The position numbers were made by a program, and so were the translations under genes. Positions 6,645-27,772 of a stretch of DNA of 64,000 nt are shown piece after piece. Position 1 is the stretch's first letter, and every line of letters begins with the position of its first letter. Source of the stretch: Actinokineospora inagensis DSM 44258 (GTDB lineage Bacteria > Actinomycetota > Actinomycetes > Mycobacteriales > Pseudonocardiaceae); contig NZ_AXWW01000005.1 in assembly GCF_000482865.1 (NCBI RefSeq), positions 1-64,000 on the forward strand, given 5' to 3'. A model generated the notes under the pieces. The model did not search any database. It saw only the letters and a program-made list of their open reading frames with translations, and had not been told where the DNA came from.

Positions 6645-6686
6645 GTCAGCATCCGGCTAGGGGTAGTAAGCGTAAGCGTGTCCGAG
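6645..6686 (+). repeat. left attachment-site copy and recombinase-tail remnant of the tandem elements
   Basis: This 42-bp segment closely matches 18002-18041: GTCAGCATCCGG, then TAGGGGTAGTAAGCGT, then GCGTGTCCGAG. It differs by a short gap and a duplicated AAGCGT. Translated, it resembles the LDVSIR end of the serine recombinase at 16300-18130, yet no recombinase gene lies in front of it. I infer it is the left boundary of element 1 and the trace of an earlier, now deleted, element. The 11-bp end is identical at 6676-6686, 18031-18041 and 27686-27696. Confidence 0.65.
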
Positions 6687-6829
6687 AACGGTTCTGCGCA
6701 TAACCCCTACGCGCCCAGGCTTCCGGATCTACGTTTTGTGCTGCCCGAAGGTTACTTGGGATCACGGATGTCAATGAGTGATTCGCGCCTAGTATTCGGC
6801 GGCAGTCGCGGAGGGTTTGGTCGACTGCG

Positions 6830-7011
6830 AGAAGTCATCGGCCGCCGATGGAGGAGCGGGCGCGCCGCGGCGGCGGGCGACGTCGTGTCGTAGTCCTTGG
6901 ACGATGGTTTTTCGAGACGAAGGATCGGTAGATGATGTCTTCCTAGGAGAGGCGGAAGAATTCGTCCATTTGTTGATGAGGTGGACGACGGCATTTGGGT
7001 TCGGTGGTCAT
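6830..7011 (-). pseudogene. decayed XRE regulator gene of element 1
   Basis: The ATG at 7011 overlaps the stop of the next upstream gene as ATGA, exactly as in element 2 (18650-18653). The DNA aligns with the intact gene at 18246-18653: both start MTT and share stretches equivalent to GCCGTCGxCCA, GAAGA and CTACCGATC. Here in-frame stops and frame changes interrupt it after about 23 codons (MTTEPKCRRP...FFRLS). It is a degraded copy of the element's first XRE gene. Confidence 0.55.
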
Positions 7012-7415
7012 TTACCGCCCTGGGCGGCGATGTGTAGCCAGGTGATAACCGCCGCACCTGCGATGGTTTGGGCGCGGTACTCGTCGACGGTGTCGGGAGG
7101 CAGGATTGCGGTGACGAAGATTGTCGCGTTGTTGGCGATTTTGCCGTTGATGCCGATCTTCGGGGAATCCAAGTCGGTTTCGCCGGTGAGGGTGACGTCG
7201 GGGTTTTGGAGTGTGTTGTGCCAGTGCAGGACTTGGGAGGCGGTTTCGGCGAGGGAGTCGGTCTGGATGAATACGGTGATCTCGTGGTCGGACTTCCTGT
7301 TGCCGCGGACGGACAGGTCGGCTTGGAACGGGTTGGGTAGGGCGTAGGTGACCAGGTGGAGGCCAAGTGTCGCGGCTAGCTCGACGAAGTTGTGAGAGAT
7401 GGTGGTGTGGGTCAT
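7008..7415 (-). CDS. conserved element protein of 135 residues
   Basis: Starts MTHTTISHNFVELAATLG and ends AAVITWLHIAAQGGK. It is clearly related along its whole length to the protein at 18650-19057; shared segments include HLVTYALPNPFQ, DLSVR, DHEITV and VITWL. No known family was recognised. The alternating beta-like pattern and lack of membrane segments suggest a soluble protein. In both elements it lies downstream of a DUF5753-like XRE gene and upstream of a small XRE gene, so it probably belongs to the element's regulatory module. An upstream in-frame ATG at 7430 is less likely, since the homologue starts at the equivalent of 7415. Confidence 0.7.
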   Translation of the reverse strand: MTHTTISHNFVELAATLGLHLVTYALPNPFQADLSVRGNRKSDHEITVFIQTDSLAETASQVLHWHNTLQNPDVTLTGETDLDSPKIGINGKIANNATIFVTAILPPDTVDEYRAQTIAGAAVITWLHIAAQGGK

Positions 7416-7530
7416 CAGGCGGGCTCCCAACGTGATTTTGAGCGGGCTACCGTTCGCAGCGAACTGGGCAGGCGAGAGGATTGCTGGGAAGAAATGGTTG
7501 AGAGGTCAATAGAGTGCCGCCGGGTTGGCG

Positions 7531-8394
7531 TCAGGCGAGCTTGCGTGTTTCCGGAGGGGAGACTGCCGAATTGTTGAGGCTGTGGTGCGGGCCGGAAATC
7601 TGTGTCAGGTAGTGGGTGATGAGGCTCTGATAGGTGGCGATGATGTGGGGTTGTTCGAGGTAGAGGCTTGAAGTGTGGAGCGGGATGTGCACGATTTTGC
7701 CGCGGCAGGCGGTGTCGAGTAGCTGGAAGGGGGAAGTTGCGTAGAGGGCCAGAATGCGCTGGTGGGTGAGGGCATGGATGGTGATGTGGGACTTCTTGGA
7801 GAGCGCTCGTAGGTAGCTGATTTGGTCGTTGACGAGGTGCTTGGGGGTGCCGCAGGTGGCCGGGTGGCCGATGACGAAGGTGAAGGTGGGCGGGTTGTAC
7901 CGGGTGAGCAGGGCGCGGCGGGATTCGTAGATGGTCGTGCGGGCCTGGACGGTGTGGGCGGGGATGAGAGGGGAGGTGGTGAGGAAGTGGTGGTGGTATT
8001 CGGGGGTGTGGAGGATGTCGGGGAGAGTGGTGGGGGCGTAGTAGGTGATGGCGGTGGAGTCGTGTTCGAGGTCGGCGATGGTGGTGGTGAAGAGGTCGGT
8101 GTTGTCGTCGTCGTGCCAGAACTGGGGTGCGCGGTCGTTGGCGGCGAGGGCTAGGAGGCGGTCGCGGTCGAGGCGGTTGGTGTGGTTGCAGGCGATGAGG
8201 AGGTGGGTTAGGTCGGCGGCGGAGACTCGGCGTTGTCCGTTGATGAGGCGGGAGAGTTTGGAGCCGTCCCAGTCCAGGGCCTTGGCGAGAGCCCTGTGGG
8301 TGAGTTGAGCGGCGTTCATGATGTGGCGGATCTCCTGGCCGACGATCCAGGAGCGGAGTGTTTTGGCGGGGCCGGGCTTGTTGTGGGCGGGCAT
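7531..8394 (-). CDS. XRE-family regulator with DUF5753-like sensor region
   Basis: 287 residues. The first 80 contain a helix-turn-helix of the XRE type (LTHRALAKALDWDGSKLSRL, then INGQRRVSAADLTHLLIAC). The rest resembles the DUF5753-type ligand-binding region of actinobacterial XRE proteins, with FWHDDDNTDLF, ITYYAPTTLPDILHTPEYH and the later YLEQPHIIATYQSLI. It is related to the protein at 19054-19884 in element 2. It probably regulates the element's own genes. About 115 bases separate it from the conserved gene at 7008-7415, which may share its transcript. Confidence 0.8.
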   Translation of the reverse strand: MPAHNKPGPAKTLRSWIVGQEIRHIMNAAQLTHRALAKALDWDGSKLSRLINGQRRVSAADLTHLLIACNHTNRLDRDRLLALAANDRAPQFWHDDDNTDLFTTTIADLEHDSTAITYYAPTTLPDILHTPEYHHHFLTTSPLIPAHTVQARTTIYESRRALLTRYNPPTFTFVIGHPATCGTPKHLVNDQISYLRALSKKSHITIHALTHQRILALYATSPFQLLDTACRGKIVHIPLHTSSLYLEQPHIIATYQSLITHYLTQISGPHHSLNNSAVSPPETRKLA

Positions 8395-8825: not shown

Positions 8826-8839
8826 GTGACCGGCCTTTA

Positions 8840-9379: not shown

Positions 9380-9455
9380 CGGAGGCGTGTGGGAGGTCTG
9401 TCGGGTGAGCAATCCGCTAGACTGATTTCGGCTGTGCTGCTAGGAGGTGGTTCCA

Positions 9456-10910
9456 GTGAGGCGTCGGCGGATGGAGTTGGTGGCGGCGCGGCGGGCTGCG
9501 GGGTTCTCCCAGGAGTCGCTTGCCGAAGCGCTGGGCGTTGACCGGACCACGGTGATGACGTGGGAAGCCGGGACACACGCGCCGACGCTGCATGTCCGGC
9601 CGAGGCTGGCTTGGGTGCTGAAGCGGTCGACCGAGCAGCTTGAGGAGTTGCTGGGGGAGCGGTCGAGGGCCGTCGCGTTCGAACGGCCCGACCTGGACCC
9701 GGCGTTGGCGTGGCTGGACAGGCATGCGGGGTGGGCAAGCGGAACGGCTCGTCAGCGGGTGGGCGAAGGGCTGGCCCGGCCCGTACCCGCCGCCGCAGTA
9801 GGACGTCGACACCTGGCGGACGCCCTCGCCAACTACTACGGGGGCGCGAACCAATACGCGGCCCAATTCGGCAGCGCGGATGTCTTGACCAGCGTATTCA
9901 CCCGGGCCGACTGGCTTGACCTTGGCTGCGCACTCTCACCAACGGGTGACGCGTTGATGACGTCGGCCGGGGCATCGGCAAACACCGAGTTCGACGAGTA
10001 CGCCGCCGGAGTGGCAACCCGCAAGCTCATCGAAGCCGTCACAAAGGGCACCCGGCTCACGGACGCCCCGGTGTACCGGCTGGTCGACATCTCGCCGAGC
10101 ACCGTCGCCATCCGGGGTCGGTTCGAAGTCGCCTCCTTCCTCGACTACGCCCTGACCGTGGACCTGCTGGAACAGGAGCTGCTGGACGTACTGACCGGTC
10201 GCACAACCAACCTGCCCCTCCGAGACGCCCGGATGCCGACCCTCGAATCCGTCGTTGACCTGCCGAATCGCCTGTGTGGGGGTGGCGTGCTGGCCCTGTT
10301 CGCCGTGGCGCGTCCAGCCGATCCGTACCGGGGCGCAGCCGACTACGTGCTGCTCGTCCAGGAACGATCGAAGCAGGTAGTCAACGCTGCTGGCCGCCTG
10401 GCGGTCATCCCCAAGGGCTTCCACGGTCCGCTGAACGACGTCCGCGCCGACTGCCGCATCGGCGCCACGCTCCGCCGTGAACTGGAAGAGGAGCTATTCG
10501 GCCGCGCCGACGTCGACATCACCGGCGGCCCGGTCCGGGCGGCCGAACCGATGCACCGCACCCGCCTGTCCGAACCTATGCGGTGGCTGCTCGCCGAACC
10601 CGGCCGCCTGCGCATGGAGTGCACGGCATTCGGGCTCAACCTGGTCAGCGGCAATTACGAGTTCGCTTGTCTCATTGTCATCGAGGACGAAGAGTTCTGG
10701 GAGCGATTCGGGGGCCACATCGAGGCCAATTGGGAGTCCGCCGGACTCAGGCAGTACTCATCCCGTGACGGCGATTCGCTCGAAGAACTGATCGCCGATA
10801 ATTCATGGAGCAATGAAGGGTTGTTCGCGATGCTCCAAGGGGTCCGGCGCCTTGCCGAGATCGGTGGCAACCGGGTACGCCTGCCGCCTGTGGAGTGGCG
10901 GGTCGGCTAG
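9456..10910 (+). CDS. XRE regulator fused to a Nudix-like domain (copy 1)
   Basis: 484 residues. An N-terminal XRE helix-turn-helix (GFSQESLAEALGVDRTTVMT, then WEAGTHAP) is followed by a middle region and a C-terminal Nudix-like segment with LAVIPKGFHGPL and IGATLRRELEEELFGRADVD, where RELEEE resembles the metal-binding core of a Nudix box. GTG 9456 is preferred: GGAGGT lies seven bases upstream, whereas the GTG at 9447 is inside that sequence. It is clearly related to the minus-strand protein at 11257-12759, especially in the C-terminal third (NYEFA, LIVIEDE, EANWES, WSNEGLFA). It probably senses a nucleotide-like ligand and controls transcription. Enzyme activity is uncertain. Confidence 0.7.
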   Translation: MRRRRMELVAARRAAGFSQESLAEALGVDRTTVMTWEAGTHAPTLHVRPRLAWVLKRSTEQLEELLGERSRAVAFERPDLDPALAWLDRHAGWASGTARQRVGEGLARPVPAAAVGRRHLADALANYYGGANQYAAQFGSADVLTSVFTRADWLDLGCALSPTGDALMTSAGASANTEFDEYAAGVATRKLIEAVTKGTRLTDAPVYRLVDISPSTVAIRGRFEVASFLDYALTVDLLEQELLDVLTGRTTNLPLRDARMPTLESVVDLPNRLCGGGVLALFAVARPADPYRGAADYVLLVQERSKQVVNAAGRLAVIPKGFHGPLNDVRADCRIGATLRRELEEELFGRADVDITGGPVRAAEPMHRTRLSEPMRWLLAEPGRLRMECTAFGLNLVSGNYEFACLIVIEDEEFWERFGGHIEANWESAGLRQYSSRDGDSLEELIADNSWSNEGLFAMLQGVRRLAEIGGNRVRLPPVEWRVG

Positions 10911-11260
10911 CTCGCGGCGGACGGCCACCGGACGGTCATGACGATCGACGGGGCCATGGCTTCCCAGGAGTGATCGACTCCCGGACCCCACATGACGTAG
11001 TCGCCGGGTCGGGTCATGGTCTGGCTGCCGCCGGTCAGGTCGACGCGGAAGTGGCCTTCGACCAGGACAACCAGGGTGGTGCGCTGATCATCGGAGGTCC
11101 ACTCGGGTCGCTTGTCGCCTTCCGGGTGCGTGCCCCACTTGACCTCAACGTCGCGAGACAACCGGACGCCCTGGGACGGGTCGATGAAGTGGCCGACGAG
11201 CCAGCCGCGGGTGTCGGTGGTGTCGTCGGCGGCGTTGCCGCTGGACCAGGCGGTGGTCAC
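10907..11260 (-). CDS. cupin-domain protein
   Basis: 117 residues, starting MTTAWSSGNAADDTTDTRGW. It has a small single-cupin pattern: GWLVGHFIDP, VEVKWGTHPEGDKRPEW, TTLVVLVEGHFRVDL and RPGDYVMWGPGVDHSWEA. Candidate metal ligands are the histidine in GTHPEGD, the glutamate in VEGHF and the histidine in VDHSW. Its GTG overlaps the stop of the upstream XRE-Nudix gene (GTGA at 11257-11260), and its own stop overlaps that of the convergent XRE-Nudix gene (CTAG at 10907-10910). It may bind or modify the small molecule sensed by the flanking regulators, which is inference. Confidence 0.7.
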   Translation of the reverse strand: MTTAWSSGNAADDTTDTRGWLVGHFIDPSQGVRLSRDVEVKWGTHPEGDKRPEWTSDDQRTTLVVLVEGHFRVDLTGGSQTMTRPGDYVMWGPGVDHSWEAMAPSIVMTVRWPSAAS

Positions 11261-12759
11261 TCGGTGATCTCCCAGTGGATCGGTGGCATTCTCACCCGCT
11301 CGCCGCCGATTTCGGTGAGGCGTCGCAGGCCCTGCAGTACGGCGAAGAGTCCTTCGTTGCTCCACGCTACATCACCCAGGAGTTCGCCGATCATGTCCGG
11401 GTCCTGTGTGGAGTAGCGACGCAGGGTGGTCGATTCCCAGTTCGCTTCGACCATTCCGCCGAATTGTGGCCAAAAGTCTTCGTCTTCGATGACGATGAGG
11501 CTGGCGAACTCGTAGTTGCCGTTGACGAGGTTCAAGCCGAATCCCGTGCACTCCGTGCGCAGGCGGCCGGGTTCGGCGAGCAGCCAGCGCATCGGGTCGG
11601 ACAGGCGGCTGGGGTGCATGGGGTCGGCGCTGCGCTGATCGCCCAAGGTGGAGTCGACGTCAGCGCGGCCGAACAGTTCCTCTTCCATCTCGCGGCGCAG
11701 GGTCGCGCCGACCTGGGCATCGGCGCGGACGTCGGTCACGGGCTGGTGGAAGCCCTTGGGGATGACGGCCAAGCGGCGGGCGGCGTTGATGACGTGACCG
11801 GAGCGTTCCTGGATCAGCAGGAGGTAGTCCGGGCCACCGCGGAACGGGTCGGCCGGTCGGGCGATGGCGGTCAGGGCCAGGGCGCCGCCGGCGCACAGCC
11901 GACTACCGACGTCGAACACGGTCGAGACGTCCGGGAGGTAGCGGTCCCGCAGCGGCAGCGACGTCCGGCCTGCGGCGATGGCGTCGACCAACTCCGATTC
12001 GAGCAGGTCCATGCTCAGCACGTACTCAGCGAACGGGACGAGGCCAACGGTGCCGTCGATGTGCTGGGGACCGATGTCGATGCTGGTCAGCCGGTACAGC
12101 GGCGCGTTGATGATCCGTGTTCCGAGCGTCAGCGTCTCGGCCAGGCGATTCACCGCGGCGTCAGCGTCGAGGGCGATTCCGGTACCGGGTGTTGTGGTTG
12201 CGCGCAGACGGTCATGCCCAGGAAGCAGCGGGCAGGCGCTGTCCAGCCAGCCTGGCCTGGTAGCGATGCTGGTGGAGATTGTCAGGTCGGCAAACTGGGC
12301 TCGGTAGGTGGGTGCGCTGCGGTAGTAGCTGGTGAGTGCGTCGGCGATGTCCCGTTGAGTGACGCGGGACCGTTGGTGGCCACGATCGCGGAGTTGGTGC
12401 GCGTCGAGCTGGTTCGCGCGAGCCGAGACGCGCGCTCGTGCCGTTCCCGGGTGCCAGTCGACCCGATCATCAACCCATTCCAGGGCTGTGACGATGTGCG
12501 GGTCGAGAGTGAGGCGATCATCCTTGGCCGCGGTGGTCAGTTCGGCGAACCGTGCGCGGACGTCAGCCGGTGCCTGCGCTAGCGCCGTGTCCAAGAGTTG
12601 CTGCATCTCCGACTGCGGCTTGAGGCTCGGCTTCTGGTGCCAGGCCGCGACCGTGCGAGCCGAAATCCCCAGATGCGTCGCGAATGCTTCCTGGCTCAAC
12701 CGCAAGGAATCCTGCAGCGCGCACGCCGTTCGACCGGTCCACGCGCTGGCATTCGCCAT
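11257..12759 (-). CDS. XRE regulator fused to a Nudix-like domain (copy 2)
   Basis: 500 residues, starting MANASAWTGRTACALQDSLR. An N-terminal helix-turn-helix (LSQEAFATHLGISARTVAAW) is followed by a linker and a C-terminal Nudix-like domain (RRLAVIPKGFHQP, GATLRREMEEELFGRADVD). It shares nearly all C-terminal motifs with 9456-10910 (PMRWLLAEPGRLR, ECTGFGLNLVNGNYEF, EIGGERVRMPP), so the two are paralogues. It is translationally coupled to the cupin gene. Regulation or nucleotide-sugar/nucleotide sensing is plausible; no substrate can be assigned. Confidence 0.7.
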   Translation of the reverse strand: MANASAWTGRTACALQDSLRLSQEAFATHLGISARTVAAWHQKPSLKPQSEMQQLLDTALAQAPADVRARFAELTTAAKDDRLTLDPHIVTALEWVDDRVDWHPGTARARVSARANQLDAHQLRDRGHQRSRVTQRDIADALTSYYRSAPTYRAQFADLTISTSIATRPGWLDSACPLLPGHDRLRATTTPGTGIALDADAAVNRLAETLTLGTRIINAPLYRLTSIDIGPQHIDGTVGLVPFAEYVLSMDLLESELVDAIAAGRTSLPLRDRYLPDVSTVFDVGSRLCAGGALALTAIARPADPFRGGPDYLLLIQERSGHVINAARRLAVIPKGFHQPVTDVRADAQVGATLRREMEEELFGRADVDSTLGDQRSADPMHPSRLSDPMRWLLAEPGRLRTECTGFGLNLVNGNYEFASLIVIEDEDFWPQFGGMVEANWESTTLRRYSTQDPDMIGELLGDVAWSNEGLFAVLQGLRRLTEIGGERVRMPPIHWEITE

Positions 12760-12868: not shown

Positions 12869-13246
12869 TCACTCGTCGCTGGTGTTGCGGACGACGGTCG
12901 TCAAGTCGGTTCGCATGCCGTTGAGTACTTCGGACAGTTCGGCGATGCGCTGTTCCAGCGAGTCCAAACGCGACACCAGGCGGTCCTCGCGGTCGGCGGG
13001 TTCGTCCGCGCTCGGCGGTGTTCGCCCGTGCAGCACCGCGTCGAGGTGCTGGGGGTGCAGGCCGAGCGTGATCGACAGGGCTTCCAGGGTCCGGGCGCTG
13101 CGGCGGCGCTCCACCGTGTGGTGCTGGAGTTCGCGGACGGTGGCCTGGGACACCTGCGAGCGCTCCGCGAGCTCCCGCTGCCGCCACCCGAGCACGTTGA
13201 CGCGCTCGTTGATGGTCTTCGCGACCGCCGCCCAGTCTTCCGACAC
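12869..13246 (-). CDS. XRE-family regulator
   Basis: 125 residues, starting MSEDWAAVAKTINERVNVLG. It has a helix-turn-helix (RQRELAERSQVSQATVRELQ) and a C-terminal coiled-coil-like segment (LVSRLDSLEQRIAELSEVL) that may dimerise. It is related to the regulator at 18246-18653 in element 2 (shared WxAVAxTIxxR, RTLEAxS and LGxHPxHLDA). It is divergent from the excisionase-like/WhiB/Tra operon starting at 13406, with a strong inverted repeat between them. It is a good candidate for the repressor of element 1 transfer genes. Confidence 0.75.
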   Translation of the reverse strand: MSEDWAAVAKTINERVNVLGWRQRELAERSQVSQATVRELQHHTVERRRSARTLEALSITLGLHPQHLDAVLHGRTPPSADEPADREDRLVSRLDSLEQRIAELSEVLNGMRTDLTTVVRNTSDE

Positions 13247-13385: not shown

Positions 13386-13405
13386 TTCAACCTTTGGGGT
13401 CAATC

Positions 13406-13579
13406 GTGGGCTTTTACTCCATTCGGAAGACGGCTCGGATATTCGGCGCACCGCAATGGCGAGTGCACCGGGCGATCCGGCTGGGAACATTGCGGTCGAC
13501 ACGGCGAGGCGGGTGGCTGGTGGTGCCCGCGTGCGAGGTCGCGCGGTGGTTGGACGCGGCGGGGGTGCGCCGTGGATGA
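13406..13579 (+). CDS. small excisionase-like DNA-binding protein
   Basis: 57 residues: MGFYSIRKTARIFGAPQWRV, then HRAIRLGTLRSTRRGGWLVV, then a short tail. This is the pattern of a MerR/excisionase-type helix-turn-helix: a helix around the TARIFG segment, an R-rich recognition region, and a W-V-V-P hairpin leading into EVARWL. I chose GTG 13406; TTG 13394 is also open. It heads the operon with the WhiB-like, membrane and Tra genes, and overlaps the next gene by 8 bases. It probably binds element DNA, perhaps as the Xis partner of the recombinase. Confidence 0.6.
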   Translation: MGFYSIRKTARIFGAPQWRVHRAIRLGTLRSTRRGGWLVVPACEVARWLDAAGVRRG

Positions 13580-13892
13580 CCTGTGGCTGATCGGCATCGC
13601 GTGGCGGCTGGACCGGCTGCGCTGGGTGCCGACATCGGTGTTGGACTCGGCGGTCCGGCGAGACGGAGCATGGAACACCGGTTCGCCGGACTGGTCGGGG
13701 ACAGATCGGGAGATCGCGGGCCGATTGTGCGCGGGCTGCCCGGTGCAGGACGAGTGCCTGGAACTGGAACTGCGGACGTCCGGCGAGTCGACTGTCGGTG
13801 TGTTCGGCGGGATGACAGATGAGGACCGCCGGGCACTGCACCTGCACTGGTTGCGCCGGGGCGAGCGGTATGAGCGAGGGCCGCAGGCATGA
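13572..13892 (+). CDS. WhiB-like protein lacking one cluster cysteine
   Basis: 106 residues from GTG 13572. The C53-x2-C56-x5-C62 group (LCAGCPVQDECLE) and the GVFGGMTDEDR turn match the WhiB family, whose members bind a 4Fe-4S cluster through four cysteines and act with sigma factors. The usual first cysteine, about 20-30 residues upstream, is absent: that region reads GAWNTGSPDWSGTD. The protein may bind a different cluster, use another ligand, or no longer bind iron. It is translationally overlapped on both sides, which places it firmly in the transfer operon of a mobile element. Confidence 0.7.
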   Translation: MDDLWLIGIAWRLDRLRWVPTSVLDSAVRRDGAWNTGSPDWSGTDREIAGRLCAGCPVQDECLELELRTSGESTVGVFGGMTDEDRRALHLHWLRRGERYERGPQA

Positions 13893-14209
13893 TCAACCTG
13901 ACGATTACCCAGGTCAGCGCTGGTGTGGGCGTCCTGCTGGTCCTGTTCGCGGTCTGGCGGTCCGGGGCGCGACGTGCCCAGGCGGCGGCAGAGGCGACCC
14001 GAAGTGGTGCTCGGTTGTTGTCACTGTTCGGGCGAGTGCTGTTCAACGCCGGCGTGATCGTGTCGGTCCAATGGGTGGTGATCACGCCCCCCGGAAGCCC
14101 GTGGTTGCTGCTCACCGTGCTCGGGGTGCCCGCGTTGTTCGCCGCGTATGCCCTGACCAAGGCGCTGACCGTCACCACCGTCGACACGTCTTCAAGGCGG
14201 CGCCGATGA
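13889..14209 (+). CDS. small membrane protein of the transfer operon
   Basis: 106 residues with an ATGA overlap at both ends (13889-13892 and 14206-14209). Hydrophobic segments are seen at about 10-24 (SAGVGVLLVLFAVW), 48-64 (VLFNAGVIVSVQWVVI) and 70-92 (WLLLTVLGVPALFAAYAL). It ends in a basic tail (SSRRRR). No family was recognised. Its tight coupling to the Tra gene suggests a role in the membrane stage of DNA transfer, such as anchoring or spreading. Confidence 0.65.
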   Translation: MINLTITQVSAGVGVLLVLFAVWRSGARRAQAAAEATRSGARLLSLFGRVLFNAGVIVSVQWVVITPPGSPWLLLTVLGVPALFAAYALTKALTVTTVDTSSRRRR

Positions 14210-18653: not shown

Positions 18654-19057
18654 TTGCTTCCGCGTGCGGCGTCGCGCAGCCAGGTGATGACCGCTGTGTC
18701 GGTGATGGTTCGGTCGCGGTATTCCTCAACGATGTCGGCAGCCAGGGTGGCGGTGACGTAGAGGGTGATCTTGTCTGCGATGTTGCCTGAGATGGTGATT
18801 TGAGGGGATTTGTATTCGGTGTCGCCGGTGAGGGTGGGTAGGGATTTGTGGAGGGTGTTGTTCCAGTGTAGGAGCTGGGTGGCAGTTTCGGCGAGAGATG
18901 CGGTGTTGATGGTGACGGTGATTTCGTGGTCGAACTTCTTGTTGTTGCGGACGGACAGGTCGACTTGAAATGGGTTGGGCAGGGCGTAGGTGACCAGGTG
19001 GTGGCCGAGGGCAGCGGCCAAGGTGACCAGGTCGTGGGTGACGGTGGTGTGACTCAT
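18650..19057 (-). CDS. conserved element protein of 135 residues (element 2 copy)
   Basis: Starts MSHTTVTHDLVTLAAALGHH and is collinear with 7008-7415 of element 1 (YALPNPFQ, DLSVR, DHEITV, LAETATQLLHW, VITWL). It is soluble and its family was not recognised. It is overlapped at both ends (ATGA at 19054-19057 and 18650-18653), placing it in the middle of a three-gene regulator operon. Keeping the same partner genes in both elements suggests it works with the DUF5753-like regulator. Confidence 0.7.
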   Translation of the reverse strand: MSHTTVTHDLVTLAAALGHHLVTYALPNPFQVDLSVRNNKKFDHEITVTINTASLAETATQLLHWNNTLHKSLPTLTGDTEYKSPQITISGNIADKITLYVTATLAADIVEEYRDRTITDTAVITWLRDAARGSK

Positions 19058-20319: not shown

Positions 20320-20916
20320 TCAGTCCACGATCACACAGTCGCGGAGTTCGCGGACCAGGTTGGATGCCAAGACCCAGGGTGCGGCCGCGTCGGAATGGGC
20401 GACCATGGCGAGATCGACAGCGGCGACGCCGGTGTTGCCGGGTCGGTAGCGCATGCCTTGGACCCCGGCGATGTCGTACACCTGCGCCCGCACGAGGGCA
20501 TATCCGTCCCGCAAGGCCGGACACGCGTGGACCGACAGTTCGGCGCACGGGCGGCAGATCGGGGGTTCGGTGACGCCCATGCGGTTGGGCCAGCCCGGCC
20601 AGTCGGCGCGGTGGTCGAGCAGGAGCCAGAGGACGCCGTCGGGGGCTTGGTCGGCGGGTTCACCGCAGACCTGGCACAGCAGTCGCCGCATCGCGCGGCG
20701 TTGGCGGAGGGAGTGGACCTTGCCGAAGAGGGGGCGGCCGGTGCCGGGGGTGGAGGGGACGCGGACCCAGAGGATGCCCGAGCGGTCGCGATCGCCCATC
20801 GTTTCGTCGGCGTAGGCGATGCCGACGCCGTTCGGGTGACGGATCACCGTCGGGATGACGGGGGTCTCGGTGCTCCACGAGGTGATGTAGGGGACGTGGA
20901 TACGGGTGTCAGGCAT
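20320..20916 (-). CDS. conserved protein with a CxxC zinc-binding pattern
   Basis: 198 residues, starting MPDTRIHVPYITSWSTETPV. Features include RHPNGVGIAYADET, GILWVRVPSTPGTGRPLFGK and two cysteine pairs (LCQVCGEPAD and CRPCAEL) that could bind zinc. I recall similar proteins next to XRE regulators in Streptomyces, but their role is unknown to me. The start overlaps the stop of the upstream XRE gene by 8 bases, so it is expressed with it. Confidence 0.65.
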   Translation of the reverse strand: MPDTRIHVPYITSWSTETPVIPTVIRHPNGVGIAYADETMGDRDRSGILWVRVPSTPGTGRPLFGKVHSLRQRRAMRRLLCQVCGEPADQAPDGVLWLLLDHRADWPGWPNRMGVTEPPICRPCAELSVHACPALRDGYALVRAQVYDIAGVQGMRYRPGNTGVAAVDLAMVAHSDAAAPWVLASNLVRELRDCVIVD

Positions 20917-21250
20917 CGAAGGCCGCCACCTGGTCAAGCGACAGGCCGCCGTGCAGGAGGACGGCGCGGAGGATGCTGGACGTCGGTTCGAGGCCGTTGG
21001 CGCGGTGGATGCGGTCGGCGACGGCCAAGAGCAGGGCGGCCGGACGCGCGTTCAAGGCCGGGGCCAGGGTGACAATGCGCGGCAGGTCGGGATGATGGGT
21101 GCCCTTCTCGTAGCTGCGCATGGTCTGTTCGGGAATCTCGCAGGTCTCGGAGAGTTCACGCACGGTGGTATCAGTGGCGCTGCGGTACTCCGAAAGTGTG
21201 AGGGCAAACGCCAGGCGATAATCGCGGAGGGCGTTGTTGTGGTGTCGCAT
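20909..21250 (-). CDS. XRE-family regulator, likely binder of the ATGCG-N5-CGCAT sites
   Basis: 113 residues, starting MRHHNNALRDYRLAFALTLS. The helix-turn-helix is TTVRELSETCEIPEQTMRSY followed by EKGTHHPDLPRI. It is the first gene of the leftward operon 21250-18246. ATG 21250 is favoured over the longer open frame to 21352, because the longer frame would cover the palindrome at 21337-21353. It is divergent from the XRE-TPR gene at 21412, with that palindrome between them, so autoregulation is likely. Confidence 0.7.
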   Translation of the reverse strand: MRHHNNALRDYRLAFALTLSEYRSATDTTVRELSETCEIPEQTMRSYEKGTHHPDLPRIVTLAPALNARPAALLLAVADRIHRANGLEPTSSILRAVLLHGGLSLDQVAAFDA

Positions 21251-21336
21251 CGGCGCCTGTTCGGGTTGTCCAACGGGAACTGATGCGACGTTATGAACAG
21301 CGCCGATGTGTTTCGGCACCCCGAAGGCATGATCTT

Positions 21337-21353
21337 TATGCGCGCAACGCATA
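21337..21353. promoter_or_regulatory. candidate operator (TATGCG-N5-CGCATA)
   Basis: A perfect 6-bp inverted repeat with a 5-base spacer lies between the divergent genes at 21250 and 21412. Its core, ATGCG-N5-CGCAT, recurs at 23490-23504 before the transfer genes. Confidence 0.55.
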
Positions 21354-21411
21354 GTGTGTGCTTCTCGGGTCTAATGTGGAGTTGAGATCACCGCAGCGGG
21401 TGGGAGAGCCG

Positions 21412-22767
21412 ATGTCGGGCCGGTACTGCATGAGGTGCGGCGGCAGGCTGGCGCGGGACACGCGGGTCAGCATGTGCGCGCCGTGCCGGCAGGTCAGCGG
21501 CGTTGGGACCGACCACGCGCCGGACCTGGGGTTGGACTTCTGGACGACCGACCAGATGAAGGACGCGTTCGCGACCAGGGAGATGGGCGCGGTGGTGCGC
21601 GCCTACCGTTACCACCCAGCGCACGGGCACAAGGCGCTGCCGCAGGAAACGGTCAGCCGGTGGCTGGGCACCGTGACGCAATCTCAACTCAGCCGGATCG
21701 AGTCGGGTCGGAACAAAGTTGACACCCTGGCAAAATTGATCCACTACGCGCGTGCACTGAAGATGCCCGCAAATCTTCTGTGGTTTTCATTGCCGGATGA
21801 GCCTGGCTCGATCCCGTTGCCGCGCTCGGACGAAGTCCTGGCTTTGCCAGACGGGCCGCTGGTCCCGGCCGCGAGCATCAACACTGGGTCTGCCATCGCC
21901 GACACATTGCTGAAGACGCTCGACCACTACGCGAGCACGGACAACCTTGCAGGGCCCCGGTCGCTGGTTCAGGTTGTACCGCAACAATTGCGATTCATCG
22001 AGGAACTGTTGCAGAAGGCGCGGGGTAGGGATCGGGCGCAGTTGCTCCGGGTCGCGGCTCGGTACGCGGAGTTCGCGGGCTGGATCTACCAGGACACCGG
22101 CACGCTGAACGCCGCGATGCAGGTGTCCGGGGAAGCGTTGGACTTCGCGCAGGAGGCCGAGGACGACGAGTTGGCCTCCTACATCCTGATGCGCCGGAGC
22201 AACATCGCGGCCGATGCCAAGCGGCACGACCTGGCGTTGAAGTTGGCCAACGCCGCGCTGACCCAGTCCACCAAGCTCACCGCCCGACTGCGTGCGTTGG
22301 CGCTGCGCCAGCAGGCCCACGTGTACGCGCAGAAGGGTGATGTGGCGGGGTGTGCGCGGGTCCTGGATGTGGCGTTCAAGCTGGCCGAGCGGTCGTCGGA
22401 CTCCGAGATGGACCTGGGGCACTACTGCACGCCGGAGTACTTGGAGATGGAGGCGGCCCAGTGCTGGGTTGAGTTGGGGCGTCCGCACGAGGCGATCGAC
22501 TCACTCAGGCAAGGGTTGTCAGGGTGGCAAGCCGAGTTCCGGCGGGATCTGGGCTTGTGCCTGGCCAGGTTGGCCATGGCGCACGCTGTCGAGGCTCAGG
22601 CAGATCACGCGGTGCAGGTGGCACGCAGTGCGACCACGATCGGGCTGGAGACCAGGTCACATCGGATCGCGGTGCAGTTGGGGCGCATTCCGGCCGCGCT
22701 GGAGTCGTCGGGTGCCGATGAGGAAGCGATGCGAGTTCGACGGCTGGTAAAGTCGCTGGGGTCATAG
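21412..22767 (+). CDS. XRE regulator with TPR-like repeats
   Basis: 451 residues from ATG 21412, with GGGAGA upstream. A short cysteine motif at the start (YCMRCGGRLARDTRVSMCAP) may bind zinc. A helix-turn-helix follows (VSRWLGTVTQSQLSRIESGR), then about 250 residues of helical TPR-like repeats (LLRVAARYAEFAGWIYQDTG, ALRQQAHVYAQKGDVAGCAR, LARLAMAHAVEAQ). This is the typical build of actinobacterial regulators that sense peptides or partner proteins. It is followed after 9 bases by a creatininase-family gene, an arrangement I recall from other actinobacteria. Confidence 0.8.
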   Translation: MSGRYCMRCGGRLARDTRVSMCAPCRQVSGVGTDHAPDLGLDFWTTDQMKDAFATREMGAVVRAYRYHPAHGHKALPQETVSRWLGTVTQSQLSRIESGRNKVDTLAKLIHYARALKMPANLLWFSLPDEPGSIPLPRSDEVLALPDGPLVPAASINTGSAIADTLLKTLDHYASTDNLAGPRSLVQVVPQQLRFIEELLQKARGRDRAQLLRVAARYAEFAGWIYQDTGTLNAAMQVSGEALDFAQEAEDDELASYILMRRSNIAADAKRHDLALKLANAALTQSTKLTARLRALALRQQAHVYAQKGDVAGCARVLDVAFKLAERSSDSEMDLGHYCTPEYLEMEAAQCWVELGRPHEAIDSLRQGLSGWQAEFRRDLGLCLARLAMAHAVEAQADHAVQVARSATTIGLETRSHRIAVQLGRIPAALESSGADEEAMRVRRLVKSLGS

Positions 22768-22776: not shown

Positions 22777-23490
22777 TTGAAGGTGCGCGTGATTACTGCG
22801 GCGACGTCGACCGATGAGGCCCAGCGCGGCGCGCGGGTGGCGATTCTCGCCGTCGGGAGTTTTGAGCAACACGGCGATCATTTGCCACTCATCACGGATA
22901 CGGTTGTCGCTGAGACTATCGCCGGTCGGCTTGCCGCCGAATACGATTTGTTCCGCTTGCCGCCGATCACGATGTCGTGTTCTCACGAGCACGCGGGATT
23001 TGCCGGAACGGTCAGCATCAGCGCGGCAACGTTGATCGCGGTCATCGCCGATGTCCGTGCGTCGTTGGCCGCGTCCGGGATCACCCGCCTGGTGCTCGTC
23101 AACGGCCACGGCGGCAACTACGTGCTGTCGAACATCGCCCAAGAGGCCAACACAGCCGGTCCGGCGGTGGCACTGTTCCCCGGGAAGCACGACGTTGACG
23201 CTGCTCGGGAGGCGGCGGGCATGGAGACTGACTCCCACGAAGACATGCACGGCGGTGAGTGGGAGACCTCCATCCTGCTCCACGCGCACTCGGATCTTGT
23301 CCGTGTTGGCTACGCCGATGCCGACTATGACGCCGTAGACAGGCCGCACCTGCACCTGATCGGCATGGCGGGCTACACGAAGTCGGGCATTGTCGGATTC
23401 CCATCGAAGGCATCGGCCGAGAAGGGGCGCAAGGCGCTCGATTCTCTGGCGAAGTCGTTCCGTGAGACACTGGACGCGCTCTCGATCTGA
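22777..23490 (+). CDS. creatininase-family amidohydrolase
   Basis: About 237 residues. Family motifs for metal binding and catalysis are visible: GSFEQHGDHLPLITDT, SCSHEHAGF, LVNGHGGNYVLSN and DMHGGEWETS. Creatininase-family enzymes are metal-dependent amidohydrolases acting on cyclic or formamide-type substrates; the substrate here is unknown. The start is uncertain: TTG 22777, GTG 22783 and GTG 22789 are all in frame. The gene follows the XRE-TPR gene by 9 bases and is likely co-transcribed. A metabolic enzyme as cargo inside a transfer module is unusual. Confidence 0.8.
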   Translation: MKVRVITAATSTDEAQRGARVAILAVGSFEQHGDHLPLITDTVVAETIAGRLAAEYDLFRLPPITMSCSHEHAGFAGTVSISAATLIAVIADVRASLAASGITRLVLVNGHGGNYVLSNIAQEANTAGPAVALFPGKHDVDAAREAAGMETDSHEDMHGGEWETSILLHAHSDLVRVGYADADYDAVDRPHLHLIGMAGYTKSGIVGFPSKASAEKGRKALDSLAKSFRETLDALSI

Positions 23491-23556
23491 TGCGAGTCGC
23501 GCATAAGTTTCATGCGCATTGAGCGAGAACTCGCGCGCATACACATAATGCGCGCG
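23490..23556. promoter_or_regulatory. palindrome cluster upstream of the element 2 transfer genes
   Basis: ATGCG-N5-CGCAT occurs at 23490-23504, overlapping the creatininase stop. At 23532-23556 lies a longer inverted repeat, CGCGCGCAT and ATGCGCGCG, with a 7-base spacer; an extra ATGCGCAT is between them. The first site has the same arms and spacing as the operator at 21337-21353. One repressor could therefore control both promoters. Confidence 0.5.
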
Positions 23557-23646
23557 ACTGGCCTAATCGAGGTTGTTCCGACCGTTTACTCGGATTCACG
23601 AGCTGGCGACAACGCCGGTTCGAACCGAGTAGACGGAGATCGAACC

Positions 23647-23850
23647 GTGGAACGCTGGGAACACCTTCAGAGCTGGCTTTTCCACCTGGGTTACCTGGGT
23701 GAGGAACTCGAGTGCTTCGCAGGCACCAGCCGTGGTGCCTGGCTGTACCGGCAGATCGCGCGGGAAGCGGCCCAAGCGGCCAAGGTCGCGCGCGAGTTCA
23801 TCGACGAGGTCGAACAAGCGTCGACCTACTACGCGGACGGTGGCCTGTGA
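23647..23850 (+). CDS. small hypothetical protein upstream of Tra (element 2)
   Basis: 67 residues from GTG 23647, with GGAGA seven bases upstream: MERWEHLQSWLFHLGYLGEE, then LECFAGTSRGAWLYRQIARE. Helical and acidic, with no membrane segment or known family. Its stop overlaps the GTG of the Tra frame (GTGA at 23847-23850). Positionally it replaces the small membrane protein of element 1, but the sequences are not related. Confidence 0.6.
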   Translation: MERWEHLQSWLFHLGYLGEELECFAGTSRGAWLYRQIAREAAQAAKVAREFIDEVEQASTYYADGGL

Positions 23851-25748
23851 AGGCTGGTCGTCGCTGGCGTACCCGGCCATCATTGGACGGCCTGTCCGTT
23901 CCGGCTGGCTGGAAGCGCGCGGTTGGTTGCTGTACGTCGCTCCGGGCCTGGTGTGGCACGGCCTATGGCGAGGTGCACGGTGGATCGTTCTGCGCGGAAT
24001 GCCGTGGCTGGCCAGGGTGTTGTGGCTCGCCGTCGTCGGCGCCTCGTGGTTGGCGTCGTGCCTTGGTCGGTATGTGCTGGCTCATCGCGAGTACGGGCCG
24101 CTGGTGCGGGAACTGGAGGTGGAGGGTGCGCGGGCGCATCGGCTCAAGCGCGCTCGTGACGCCTGGCGACGGACCGCGTATCGGCGGTTGTGGCTGGTCG
24201 TAGGTCTGATCGTCGCTTTGGTCGGAGCCACGGCGGTTCTGGCACATCGGTACGGATCGGCGATCTCCTGGTCGGCGTTGACGCTGGTCACAGGCGTGTT
24301 TGCCCTGGTTGGCAGGACGCGAAGGCCACCCACGGTGCGTCCCGAGGCTGAGCAGGCCCCAGGCCCGAGGGACCCGTTCCCGATCGCGGACGCCCATACC
24401 CGGGGGCAGGCGGCCGACTGCGTGGCACGTGCGGTGGGCGCCGAGGGGATCGAGTTGCGCGGGGTGGAGAGCACGCGGCGGACACCGTGGGGGTGGGAGG
24501 CCGCCGTGGTGCTCAAGCGCGGGACACCGGCCGGGCTGGTGGCCAAGGTCGCCGAGCTGGAGACCACCCTTGATCTCCCGTCCGGCGGGGTGCTCGCCGC
24601 ACCGGATCGCGGCCGACGTGCTCGTGTCGTGCTGCGACTCGCCGAGCGAGACCCGTTTGCCGGGGTGACAACTGCACCAGACCACGCCCCGGCGTCGTTG
24701 TCGATCAAGGATTCCCACGTGGTCGGCGCGCGGATGAGCGGCGATGACCTGCGGTTGTCCCTGTACGGCGTGCATGCGGTGGTCATCGGCGGCCCCGGTG
24801 CGGGCAAGTCGCAAACCCTGCGGACGCTGGCCGACGTGGTGTCTGCCTGCGCGGACGCGGTGGTGTGGGACTTGGACCCAGCCGGCAACGGACTTGAGGT
24901 ACTCGGCGGCGGTGTCAGCCGAGTCGAACGGGATCGGGCGGGTATCGAGGACGCTCTGGGAGGCGGTGGCGATGGCGCAGGTCCGCCCCCGGCTGCTGAC
25001 CCAGTTGGGCATGGGCGACGCGTGGGACGTGTCCCCGGAGCGCCCCGCCGTGGTGGTGTTCTGCGACGAGTACCCGCGCTTGTCCGACCAGGCGAAGGCG
25101 CTCGCGGTCGACCTGATCCGGATCGGCCGCAAGGCTCGGGTGACGCTGGTGTTGGCCGCGAGCGAGGCCACCTCGGATGCGCTCGGTGCTGCCGTCGCGG
25201 AGATCGCCGCCTTGAAGATCCTGCACGCCTGCCGACATGCGGACGTCCGCCTGGTCCTCGGCGCGAACATGATCGCCGACGGTTGGCGCCCGGACCGGCT
25301 CAACCCCGCGACCGGTGAGACACCCGAGGACGCGGGGGTCTGCTACGTCCACGCCGCCGGGGCTCGCGACCCCATCCTGAACAAGATCCGTCTGGTGCCT
25401 GCCGCTCGTGCGCGGCTCAACGGTTCGCACCGTGCCGCGCGGGGGCTGCCCCGCATAGATGTTGCCACCCTGGCAAAGCAAGTCGAGACGGACTCGGTGG
25501 ACCGCAGCGCTGTCGACGACGTGTTGACGGCGTTCGGCGCCGATGATCGCGTGTGGACCGAGACACTGCTGTCCAGGTTGGCCACCCTGCACGAGCGCTA
25601 CCGGGCTTGGACGGCGGAGGACTTGGCCGCCGTGCTGGCGCCGTTGGAGGTGCGGCCGGGTCAGGTGAAGATCGGTAGCCGCAACCGCAACGGGTACCGG
25701 CGCCTGTTCGTCCGCGAGGCGTGGGACGCCTACCGGGGTGGCCGATGA
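23847..25748 (+). pseudogene. FtsK/SpoIIIE-type transfer translocase, frameshifted
   Basis: Membrane-anchor segments (WLLYVAPGLVWHGLWRGARW, LWLVVGLIVALVGATAVLAH) are followed by the motor domain with Walker A GGPGAGKSQT, Walker B AVVVFCDEYPR and a winged-helix end (LEVRPGQVKIGSRNRNGYRR). The frame breaks near 24955-24961, between EDAL and WEAVAMAQVRPRLLTQLG, so no single product contains both Walker motifs. A second shift is likely near 23905, since the coupled GTG 23847 opens another frame. The equivalent gene of element 1 is intact. Loss of this protein should prevent self-transfer. Confidence 0.75.
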
Positions 25749-25972
25749 GGTCTACTCGGGTAGAGGCCGGTAGAGCCACCGGAATTGGCTCTGAGCAGGG
25801 CGGTAGGCGGGTAGAGCCCCGAATGCTGACCGTGTACCGCCACGGCTTGACGGTGCGTCGTCCGAGTGAACCTCCTGTGCTCAACAGGAGGGCCTACCTG
25901 ATCCTGCTTGCGATTCTCGTCGACTACACCACCATGGGAGATCCGGAGGGGAGGCATCGCGATGACCAGTAG
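25745..25972 (+). CDS. small linker protein between Tra and recombinase (element 2)
   Basis: 75 residues if started at ATG 25745, which overlaps the Tra stop (ATGA) as in element 1; ATG 25823 is an alternative. The conserved half reads PPVLNRRAYLILLAILVDYTT, matching 16170-16310. The stop lies 11 bases inside the recombinase gene, the same overlap as in element 1. Function unknown. Confidence 0.6.
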   Translation: MRSTRVEAGRATGIGSEQGGRRVEPRMLTVYRHGLTVRRPSEPPVLNRRAYLILLAILVDYTTMGDPEGRHRDDQ

Positions 25973-27707
25973 CCCATGGACGCGGTTCGATGAGTTGTTC
26001 GGTGTGGAGGCCACCGCAGACCCGATGAGCGACGCAGTTGGGAATCTGGCGTTCTACGGCCGGTGCTCCACCGAGGACAACCAGGACCCCGAGACGTCTC
26101 ACGGCTGGCAGCGCGGCAACGCCGAGAAGTTCGTGGGGCCGCTGGGCGGACAGATCGTGGCGGACTTCTTCGACATCGGTCAGTCTCGTTCGGTGCCGTG
26201 GGAGCGGCGGGAGGCGGCGTCGAGGTTGCTCGCGGCGTTGAAGGACCCGCGCCGTGCCTGGACCGGTGTGGTGGTCGGTGAGGGCACGCGGTGTTGGTTC
26301 GGCAATCAGTTCTCGCTGATCGCACCCCGGTTTGCCGCCTATGGCGTGGACCTGTGGGTGCCGGAGTTGGGTGGCAAGTACGACGCGCGCAACCCCTCCC
26401 ACAAGATGCTCATGAGCGTCCTCGGTGGCATGAGCGAGTCCGAGCGCCAGCACGTCCAGGCCCGGGTTCGCGCGGCGATGGACGCGCAGGTGGTCAACGA
26501 GGGCCGCTACCAGGGCGGTCGGGCGCCCTACGGATATCGAGTGGTCGACGCGGGTCCACACCCGAACCCGCGCAAAGCAGCCGAAGGGTTCCGCCTGCGG
26601 GTGCTTGCACTCGACGAACAGGCGGCCGAAGTGGTGGAGCGGATCTTCGCTGACTACCTCAACGGCAAAGGCGACCGAGCCATCGCCAACGCCCTCAACC
26701 GGGAGGCCATCGCGTGCCCGTCAGCGGCGCGGCCGGAGCAGAACCGGCACCGGATCGCGGATGGCTGGCAGGCCACCACAGTTCGGTCGATTCTGGAGAA
26801 TCCGCGCTACACCGGCTATGCGTTCTTCGGTCGGTGGATGCGGCGGGAAATGCTGCTCGACCCGGACGACGTGGGCGCGGGTCACGTGGTGCGGTTCAAG
26901 CGCGCGGACGCGGACAAGGTGGTGCGGTCGCGGGAGCAGGCGCACCCGGTGATCGTGCCGGTTGAGGTGTTCACTGAGGTGCAGTTGCGCAGGCGCGGCA
27001 AGTCCGCCGGTGGATTGCGCACCACAGCCAGGAACGAACGCGCCGAGCGGCCGACGAAACGCACCTACCTGTTCCGTGGGCATCTCCGCTGCGCGGTGTG
27101 TACGCGGAAGATGGAAGGCAGTCCGCGTAAGCACGGCATGTACTACCGCTGCCCCGCCCGCACTCTCGCGCCCGGTTCACCGGCACTGGCCAGCCACCCG
27201 CCCACGGTGTACCTGCGTGAGGAGCCGTTGCAGAAGATCGTCAACGAATGGCTGGTGGAAGTCCTGCACCCGGCCCGGGTTGATGCCACCGTGCAGGCCC
27301 TTCTCGATGCCCAGGTGACACCAAGCGGCGCGGCAGACCACGAGGCCGCCCGGAAGCGGCTCAAGGACGCCGAAGGGCGGTTGCGGCGCTACCAGGAGGC
27401 CATCGGCGCCGGGATCGACCCGACCGCCTTGGTTGACGCGATGAACCAGGCCCAAGCCGAGAAGGCAGCCGCACAGGCAGAACTAAGGGAGGCGCCCGAG
27501 CCGGGCACGGTCAGCGCGGCGGAGATCTACGCCATGATCGACTCACTCGGCGACGTCCAAGCCATGGTGGACAACGCCGACCCCGGCAACCTGGCCAGCC
27601 TGTACGACGCGATGGGGCTGGAGATCAGGTACTTCAACGACGAAGCGGCCGTCGAGATGACGGCCGCTCCACGGGTGAATAGCGTGCGTGTCCGAGGGGG
27701 GACTTGA
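25962..27707 (+). CDS. serine recombinase (integrase) of element 2, intact
   Basis: 581 residues from ATG 25962, with GGAGGGGAGG upstream. The resolvase domain has its catalytic serine at about S36 in FYGRCSTEDNQ, with conserved arginines in GQSRSVPWERR and SESERQHVQARVRAAM. Next come the Recombinase domain (ILENPRYTGYAFFGRWMRRE), zinc-ribbon cysteines (RCAVCTRKMEGSPR, YYRCPAR) and a coiled-coil region (RKRLKDAEGRLRRYQEAIGA) near the end. This is the large serine integrase architecture, which cuts and joins att sites through a serine-DNA bond. The last codons (SVRVRGGT) and the stop lie inside the tRNA-Leu gene. It is closely related to the broken gene of element 1. Confidence 0.9.
   Translation: MTSSPWTRFDELFGVEATADPMSDAVGNLAFYGRCSTEDNQDPETSHGWQRGNAEKFVGPLGGQIVADFFDIGQSRSVPWERREAASRLLAALKDPRRAWTGVVVGEGTRCWFGNQFSLIAPRFAAYGVDLWVPELGGKYDARNPSHKMLMSVLGGMSESERQHVQARVRAAMDAQVVNEGRYQGGRAPYGYRVVDAGPHPNPRKAAEGFRLRVLALDEQAAEVVERIFADYLNGKGDRAIANALNREAIACPSAARPEQNRHRIADGWQATTVRSILENPRYTGYAFFGRWMRREMLLDPDDVGAGHVVRFKRADADKVVRSREQAHPVIVPVEVFTEVQLRRRGKSAGGLRTTARNERAERPTKRTYLFRGHLRCAVCTRKMEGSPRKHGMYYRCPARTLAPGSPALASHPPTVYLREEPLQKIVNEWLVEVLHPARVDATVQALLDAQVTPSGAADHEAARKRLKDAEGRLRRYQEAIGAGIDPTALVDAMNQAQAEKAAAQAELREAPEPGTVSAAEIYAMIDSLGDVQAMVDNADPGNLASLYDAMGLEIRYFNDEAAVEMTAAPRVNSVRVRGGT
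27686..27696 (+). repeat. chromosomal attachment core at the tRNA-Leu 3' end
   Basis: GCGTGTCCGAG, identical to 6676-6686 and 18031-18041. Here it covers the 3' acceptor strand and discriminator base of the tRNA gene on the minus strand, so integration keeps the tRNA intact. Confidence 0.65.
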
Positions 27708-27772
27708 ACCCCCACGCCCGTTAAGGGCACTAGCACCTCAAGCTAGCGCGTCTGCCATTCCGCCACCCGGAC
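27689..27772 (-). tRNA. tRNA-Leu (anticodon GAG)
   Basis: The minus strand folds as a class II tRNA of 84 nt. The acceptor arm is GTCCGGG with CTCGGAC (one G-U pair) and discriminator A. The anticodon stem CTAGC/GCTAG encloses the loop TTGAGGT, giving anticodon GAG. A long variable arm with a TGCCCTTAACGGGCG hairpin and the T arm GGGGG-TTCAAGT-CCCCC follow. CCA is not encoded. It is the target of the integrative elements, whose DNA begins right after its 3' end. Confidence 0.95.

Follow-up and report, generated by a model that had tools for sequence, protein, structure and literature searches.

The first 64,000 nucleotides of contig NZ_AXWW01000005.1 of Actinokineospora inagensis DSM 44258 (the window; the start of contig C3 in the 7.28-Mb genome G000) hold two integrative elements in tandem beside a tRNA-Leu(GAG) gene. 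We examined the gene-order blocks at 6645..27772. Judged from sequence comparison, this stretch is probably an accretion array of elements that resemble actinomycete integrative and conjugative elements (AICEs) and share a single serine-integrase/attP system that targets the tRNA-Leu(GAG) 3′ end.

Two elements ending at a tRNA-Leu(GAG) gene

Element 1 (6679-18033, 11.4 kb) and element 2 (18034-27688, 9.7 kb) each end in a serine integrase gene (int) that points into the border. A first-pass annotation had marked the borders by an 11-bp word, GCGTGTCCGAG, and proposed tandem integrative elements with a serine integrase at tRNA-Leu; both points are borne out. The window has just three exact copies of the word, at 6676, 18031 and 27686 (0.18 expected; 2 of 100 shuffles reach three), while seven copies with one mismatch permitted are not unusual (5.3 expected; 26 of 100 shuffles reach seven). 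As the tRNA gene sits at 27688-27772 on the minus strand, the third copy overlaps the tRNA 3′ end, as had been noted. The family-wide core is TGTCCGAG, found in the window at 6679, 18034 and 27689. The border features are as follows.

6644..6678 (+), integrase 3′-end remnant identified by shared words, left half of the left junction; may be the P arm of an element since lost
6679..6686 (+), core TGTCCGAG at the left end of element 1, followed by A instead of the usual G
16300..18130 (+), serine integrase int1, frameshifted near 17125; its 3′ end extends into element 2 at that element's left end
18034..18041 (+), core TGTCCGAG where elements 1 and 2 meet (P arm of 1 and P′ arm of 2)
25962..27707 (+), serine integrase int2, intact; final codons and TGA stop within the tRNA gene
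27689..27696 (+), core TGTCCGAG, right end of element 2; reverse complement of the tRNA discriminator and acceptor 3′ strand
27688..27772 (-), tRNA-Leu(GAG), from a tRNA scan

The remnant at 6644-6678 (~35 nt), absent from the first-pass description, has the words GTCAGCATCCGG and GGGGTAGTAAGCG in common with the int1 3′ end before 18034, and integrase remnants were found at the left junctions of other arrays too. These ~35 bp of another integrase end to the left of 6679 suggest a trace of a lost third element. Further left, 3503-5414 has relatives of more than 900 nt in G002 and G008, away from the array site; comparison of 5414-6676 with other genomes of the genus gave short matches only.

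The integrases contain an N-terminal resolvase domain, a recombinase domain and a zinc ribbon (Resolvase, Recombinase, Zn-ribbon), and S33 of the RCST motif, which we take to be the catalytic serine, is invariant in integrase alignment A2. Nucleotide similarity between int1 and int2 extends over 300 nt at 81%, and their C-terminal parts are merely 50% identical. The int frame is broken near 17125 in element 1 and the Tra frame near 24850 in element 2, each being whole in relatives; because the broken genes differ, in principle each element could supply what the other lacks.

The first-pass annotation gave both blocks the same gene order. This stands for the ends, with an XRE/135-residue-protein group on the left and an FtsK-type Tra, a linker open reading frame (ORF) and the serine recombinase on the right. 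The middles are unrelated, so the likeness is confined to the ends: HTH-Nudix/cupin/HTH-Nudix/XRE/WhiB in element 1 (type I) and p205/XRE/NsdA-family TPR/creatininase in element 2 (type II).

Element 1
7008..7415 (-), 135-residue protein, no convincing family match
7531..8394 (-), XRE + DUF5753 regulator
9447..10910 (+), reg487, HTH protein; 50% identity to reg500 in alignment A1
10907..11257 (-), cupin-like protein, just below the Pfam cut-off (scanned as 10910-11257)
11257..12759 (-), reg500, HTH and predicted Nudix fold (structure model)
12869..13246 (-), XRE regulator xre125
13394..13579 (+), small wHTH protein, Rv2175c_wHTH/HTH_17-like, below cut-off
13572..13892 (+), WhiB-type protein (PF02467, 1.6e-10)
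14206..16173 (+), Tra, FtsK/SpoIIIE type, start uncertain (PF01580, 7e-6; phrog_1358, 1e-23)
16170..16310 (+), linker ORF, 46 aa, candidate recombination directionality factor

Element 2
18246..18653 (-), small XRE-like protein, below the Pfam cut-off
18650..19057 (-), 135-residue protein
19054..19881 (-), XRE + DUF5753 regulator
20320..20937 (-), p205 (phrog_30088)
20909..21352 (-), XRE-like regulator, below cut-off
21358..22767 (+), NsdA-family TPR regulator (NF053720, 1.5e-47)
22777..23490 (+), creatininase-family protein (PF02633, 3.7e-60)
23512..23850 (+), p112, no match in NCBIfam or PHROGs
23699..25748 (+), Tra, FtsK/SpoIIIE type, frameshifted near 24850 (phrog_12531, 2e-54, C-terminal piece)
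25721..25972 (+), linker ORF, candidate recombination directionality factor

The Nudix assignment of reg500 comes from its structure model (pLDDT 85.5), for which the top PDB match is human NUDT22 (E 4e-9), followed by further Nudix proteins; Pfam gave no Nudix match up to E 0.1. The homologous HTH proteins reg487 and reg500 face each other across the cupin-like protein, and cupin and reg500 are retained in most type I loci.

Overlap of integrase gene, attachment site and tRNA gene

A scan for relatives of the integrase gave 187, of which the best 80 were kept as named loci (55-92% identity, mostly Pseudonocardiaceae); the closest is from Actinokineospora globicatena (92%). Integrase matches occur in all 16 genomes of the genus. 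In 14 of the 16, an integrase of this family or its C-terminal remnant adjoins a tRNA-Leu(GAG); the exceptions are G001, with a more distant integrase at this tRNA, and G012, whose array ends at a T-arm-like sequence. Across 298 sampled genomes of the order, matches at 1e-100 were found in 38, spread over 15 of 76 genera. A second tRNA-Leu(GAG) copy in the window's genome (G000:C30:28245-28332, L163) also carries an integrase C-terminal remnant, and second copies occur in several more genomes of the genus. JOAA01000007.1 (L011/L236; from a genome of 12.4 Mb) has an integrase with 71% identity to the window's; its label, Rhodococcus rhodnii, may be wrong.

The int stop is a TGA inside the adjoining tRNA-Leu(GAG), in the form ..VRGGT* or a near variant, in 59 of the 80 named loci. 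Six more have the same stop with no intact tRNA called, and 10 of 21 distant genomes show the arrangement at 38-44% integrase identity. For five distant integrases (L185, L186, L188, L189, L190) the gene passes through the tRNA in a different frame, stopping 36-113 bases past the tRNA 3′ end.

When the two ends of an element are joined, they form a ~48-bp imperfect dyad with its centre just after TGTCCGAG (n = 16 elements, two of them remnants). The arms are complementary at 11-15 of 18 positions in 15 elements and at 7 of 18 in one, against ~4.5 at random. In the predicted attP, the coding 3′ end of int provides the left arm, and the left end of the element provides the right arm. A core identity of 8-9 bp with a dyad attP agrees with large serine integrases, although the dyad is weak in one element. 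Further left ends with a full core were located in 14 of 27 scanned loci. Because the dyad is centred there, the crossover would lie at or near the point just after TGTCCGAG, and the eight bases of TGTCCGAG, which form the tRNA discriminator and acceptor 3′ strand, would be supplied by the element. The acceptor stem is paired at 7 of 7 positions in all 61 tested tRNAs, with the 5′ offset picked for best pairing and G-U scored as a pair. Host acceptor variants are altered on both strands (two GACCGGG/CTCGGTC, five GTCCGGG/TCCGGAC). With the eight terminal tRNA bases carried inside int, the restored tRNA keeps a paired acceptor stem.

This overlap has a consequence for the integrase itself. In the integrated state int ends within the tRNA gene, and in the predicted circle it crosses attP into a conserved tail, xSCxLxTRLxL, with a stop after ~14 codons. 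Integration thus appears to replace the tail by a Gly-Thr-stop encoded in the tRNA gene. We compared the tails of 28 elements with accepted left ends (the 14 dyad elements other than remnants, and 14 from the 27 scanned loci). The first in-frame stop comes 11-17 codons on in 20 of the 28, compared with 3 and 4 of the 28 when either other frame is read and 13% for randomly chosen places. The commonest residues in the 24 elements with the common arm are G-x-[ST]-C-x-L-x-T-R-L-x-L.

The region of tail codons 10-12 lies outside the dyad. Codon 11 is almost free at all three positions, and codon 12 has entropies of 1.27, 0.25 and 1.55, so that its second position is conserved and its first and third are variable. 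At codons 10 and 12 a hydrophobic residue is seen in 43 of 48 cells (shuffle mean 10.6, maximum 21 in 10000 shuffles), and in 33 of 38 when 19 more distinct rows are used. Since the pattern follows codon phase, includes these hydrophobic codons and falls outside the dyad, we interpret it as the result of selection on the protein.

At tandem junctions (L016, and 18034 in the window) the older integrase reads into the left arm of the newer element, and because reading continues there it again has a circle-like tail. In a model of the naturally tailed L016 integrase (pLDDT 72), the tail is unordered (<50). We do not favour an end-recognised degradation tag in the circle tail, because the final tail residues vary between elements. 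A tentative proposal, to which we would give somewhat less than an even chance, is that the integration state is written into the integrase: the circle form would bear the xSCxLxTRLxL tail, integration would exchange it for Gly-Thr-stop from the host tRNA gene, and a newcomer on the tRNA side would restore a tail to the older integrase. This would form a built-in directionality or dosage switch beside a linker-encoded directionality factor.

Probable growth of arrays beside the tRNA gene

The first-pass suggestion that elements accumulate by repeated insertion agrees with both the arrays of the genus and pre-insertion comparisons in another genus. Ten arrays at tRNA-Leu(GAG) in Actinokineospora have at least two integrase traces (G000 C3, G003 C1, G005 C8 and C15, G007 C2, G008 C2, G010 C107, G011 C3 and C4, G014 C5), and by our own reading none of them has a trace more complete than the one closest to the tRNA. 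An eleventh array, in G012 at the T-arm-like site, has the same pattern. A check for an empty site within the genus found three integrase-free tRNA-Leu(GAG) copies, L139 (G014), L145 (G006, a short stretch) and L158 (G012), none of which has its left flank in common with an occupied site.

Pre-insertion comparisons were made in Amycolatopsis, the genus of G104 (80 genomes). In L260 and L272 the left flank is joined directly to tRNA-Leu(GAG). Compared with six loci, L260 has flank homology of 82-90% (up to 2373 bp at 90%) that stops at the core end or one base on in all six. What follows the L260-type flank is a P′ arm like that of this integrase family in L257, L264 and L271, and other sequences in the other three. 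We rejected L260 and L272 as empty sites and call them pre-insertion sites, as another serine integrase already lies beside the tRNA.

These comparisons support insertion next to the tRNA. The left halves of targets are integrase P arms, ends of other elements or other sequence, which suggests that the target half outside the tRNA is free, and arrays seem to grow on the tRNA side. Truncated tRNA-Leu copies (the T arm, then TACGTGGGATATCTCCC-like sequence) occur at element junctions in L263, L267, L268, L048 and L071 and are perhaps scars of another element type using the same tRNA.

Several observations weigh against stepwise accretion by a shared int/attP system, or narrow it. The left border of element 1 stands without an empty-site check, because no integrase-free copy in the genus shares a flank with an occupied site, and the base after its core is A, not G. 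Only three of the six L272 pairs diverge at the core; the other three run ~18 nt further into a truncated tRNA T-arm copy. Because both pre-insertion sites already hold a different serine integrase (~37% identical) beside the tRNA, the target there is the right junction of a resident element. No full-core left end was found for 13 of the 27 scanned loci, and two accepted left ends (L221, L223) are ahead of the next best site by one point only. The stop lies elsewhere despite an adjoining tRNA in 2 of the 80 named loci (one of them, L065, has an early stop in int); int enters other sequence in another 13, of which at least three are contig ends and L016 is an array junction; and the VRGGT-stop-in-tRNA form is missing from 11 of the 21 distant genomes. 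The tail motif is drawn from 24 of the 28 elements, the four omitted being three of another arm type and one whose arm is 1 nt shorter, and the tail counts are not independent events because the elements are related.

A linker ORF lies directly upstream of int in 74 of the 79 named loci having upstream sequence (the linker profile has nine seeds, of which seven come from counted loci and match by construction; the weakest matches have E 0.004). It is also present in loci where neither a type I nor a type II Tra occurs, in L062, which bears Rep, and in 1 of 14 more distant loci. The gene content around it varies: the Tra is of type I in 56 of the 80 loci, type II in 4 and neither in 15, with 5 too short to tell, and cupin, reg500, xre125, whiB and type I Tra are found all together in 49. 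Linker, int and att form the constant unit, in which the linker (~50 residues) accompanies int irrespective of the remaining genes. The 135-residue protein, listed by the first-pass annotation in the conserved gene order, does not belong to that unit. It occurs in 3 of the 80 integrase loci, all Actinokineospora (L004, L005, L016), and it was dropped as a family marker after appearing in none of 28 longer stretches (20 kb) from other genera, 14 of which show both element ends.

As a small protein travelling with a serine integrase, the linker is a natural candidate for the directionality factor. The alternative, that it is a mere translational coupler between Tra and int, draws on its overlapping or abutting int and, in element 1, Tra, and on the small wHTH protein of type I, which is a possible excisionase. 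Retention of the linker beside int in loci lacking both Tra types, and in L062, makes a pure coupler doubtful, roughly one chance in three by our estimate.

In the mechanism that we propose, the attP of a newcomer would recombine with the right junction of the resident, as the tRNA half of the target appears to suffice and widely different sequences can serve as the other half. The linker would serve as directionality factor, Tra would move the circle as double-stranded DNA with no element-coded replication, and the tail exchange would give the circle and integrated forms of the integrase a different activity, partner or stability. In the arrays themselves, elements lie one beside another, and the integrase adjoining the tRNA is the most complete.

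Replication, known systems and alternative explanations

The absence of a replication initiator (Rep), reported by the first-pass annotation, was upheld for the window elements: RepSA, Prim-Pol and DUF3631 had no match in contig C3, and our own RepSA profile was negative for the window. This profile (10 seeds), run on the 80 named, 32 genus and 20 further loci and on the window, matched only L062 and six distant loci, leaving 79 of the 80 named loci without a match. RepSA is present in 12 of the 16 genus genomes, away from the array sites. Because the named loci reach at most 10 kb upstream of int and elements extend up to 16.9 kb, we repeated the search on the 28 stretches of 20 kb; none had a match. 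Neither Prim-Pol (50 genomes) nor DUF3631 (38 genomes) gave a full-length match at the genus arrays, in a scan where contig numbers of named genomes are tied to loci only in part. Nor is a Rep concealed in reg487 or reg500 supported, reg500 being an HTH-Nudix protein by its model. A weak match (22.6-24 bits) to the C-terminal half of DUF3631 (RepAM family) lies in the Tra2 region just upstream of int in G008, G013 and G014 (G008:C2:346873-347094, G013:C211:32524-32742, G014:C5:256048-256290). Could this likeness be an end common to Rep and Tra?

The available text of Ghinet et al. 2011 (PMC3218068) uses Int, Tra and Rep together as the working definition of an AICE, and describes eight Mycobacterium AICEs with serine recombinases at one tRNA-Leu gene. 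The window elements have an integrase whose gene ends at the att core and an FtsK/SpoIIIE-type Tra (frameshifted in element 2). As Rep was searched for and not found, they are not AICEs by that definition; they are AICE-like, and their sequences suggest that they function as AICEs do. A serine integrase at tRNA-Leu, which the first-pass annotation took as a distinguishing mark, is shared with these published elements and with six genomes of one genus in the same order, whose int genes likewise stop within tRNA-Leu(GAG). The six differ from the window in having RepSA directly beside int (one copy truncated), integrases of 38-40% identity and no linker match; they presumably represent the published Mycobacterium group.

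The pSAM2-type AICEs have in common with the window an FtsK/SpoIIIE-type Tra, a tRNA 3′ end as target and a Nudix protein. They differ in using a tyrosine integrase, whereas the window has a serine integrase, no RepSA and a Nudix fold fused to HTH. Pif of pSAM2 is a Nudix-domain protein conferring conjugal immunity (PMC3218068, available text). By analogy, reg487 and reg500 may act in conjugal immunity, in which case unlike types could stack more easily than like types.

Integration-dependent immunity of mycobacteriophages, as described in the accessible part of PMC8092301 (citing Broussard et al. 2013), has attP within the repressor gene, and a stop at the junction shortens the repressor C-terminus. 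The window likewise has attP inside a gene whose product is shortened at its C-terminus by a junction stop. The phage gene encodes a repressor and the phage integrase is a tyrosine enzyme; in the window attP lies inside the serine integrase gene itself and the stop lies in the tRNA gene. For the phiRSM filamentous phages, the available text of PMC3816273 describes a serine recombinase that integrates at a tRNA gene 3′ end. That enzyme is a small resolvase/invertase-type recombinase acting at tRNA-Ser, and the phage attP core falls between ORF14 and ORF15 rather than within int. The integrase of the window also gives weak CcrB/CcrC profile matches. SCC elements with CcrAB or CcrC use large serine recombinases and form tandem composites at one gene's 3′ end; their target is a protein gene, they are not known to encode a conjugation protein and their hosts are different.

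Serine integration at tRNA-Leu and protein shortening by integration through attP (phage repressors) are thus already known. What looks new is an attP dyad in which the coding 3′ end of int makes up the left half, together with a conserved tail. We recognised no description of a serine integrase with a C-terminus changed on integration in the literature searched, in which subscription papers are scarcely covered, and this is not proof; nor did those texts show attP within a serine integrase gene combined with a stop codon in the host tRNA gene.

Two other accounts of the locus have to be set against an accretion array. The elements could be ordinary decaying AICEs, derived from the Rep-bearing published tRNA-Leu serine group (PMC3218068, available text) by loss of Rep, with tail and stop as by-products of the attP DNA sequence. 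RepSA beside int in the six genomes of the same order and in the closer locus L062 fits this account, as does one broken gene in each window element. However, the lack of RepSA is the rule in the named loci and longer stretches alike, the type I gene set is kept in 49 of 80 loci despite the absence of Rep, and the tail pattern lies in codon phase outside the dyad; we consider decay of this kind unlikely. Alternatively, the array could have arisen by co-integration of two circles or by duplication rather than by stepwise insertion on the tRNA side. A. globicatena (G008) has the identical order of remnant, type I, type II and tRNA, so an old array passed on whole is conceivable. Evidence against this origin comes from the differing middle modules, the 50% identity of the C-terminal parts of int1 and int2, and the type I att arm and integrase C-terminus, which differ between the window and G008; the before/after pairs in Amycolatopsis show insertion at the core. 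This origin seems to us improbable, more so than decay.

Under the accretion-array reading, the data suggest why one tRNA gene gathers element after element. Surveys that require Int, Tra and Rep together, as in the available text of PMC3218068, would have missed the Rep-less type I family. The choice of direction by serine integrases is a central open question with practical weight, and an integrase family whose C-terminus is changed by its own reaction would be a natural system for testing control of direction by the tail. Integrated copies in the databases would be without the native protein end. For tRNA-Leu(GAG), the data supply many natural attP sites together with a predicted partner protein.

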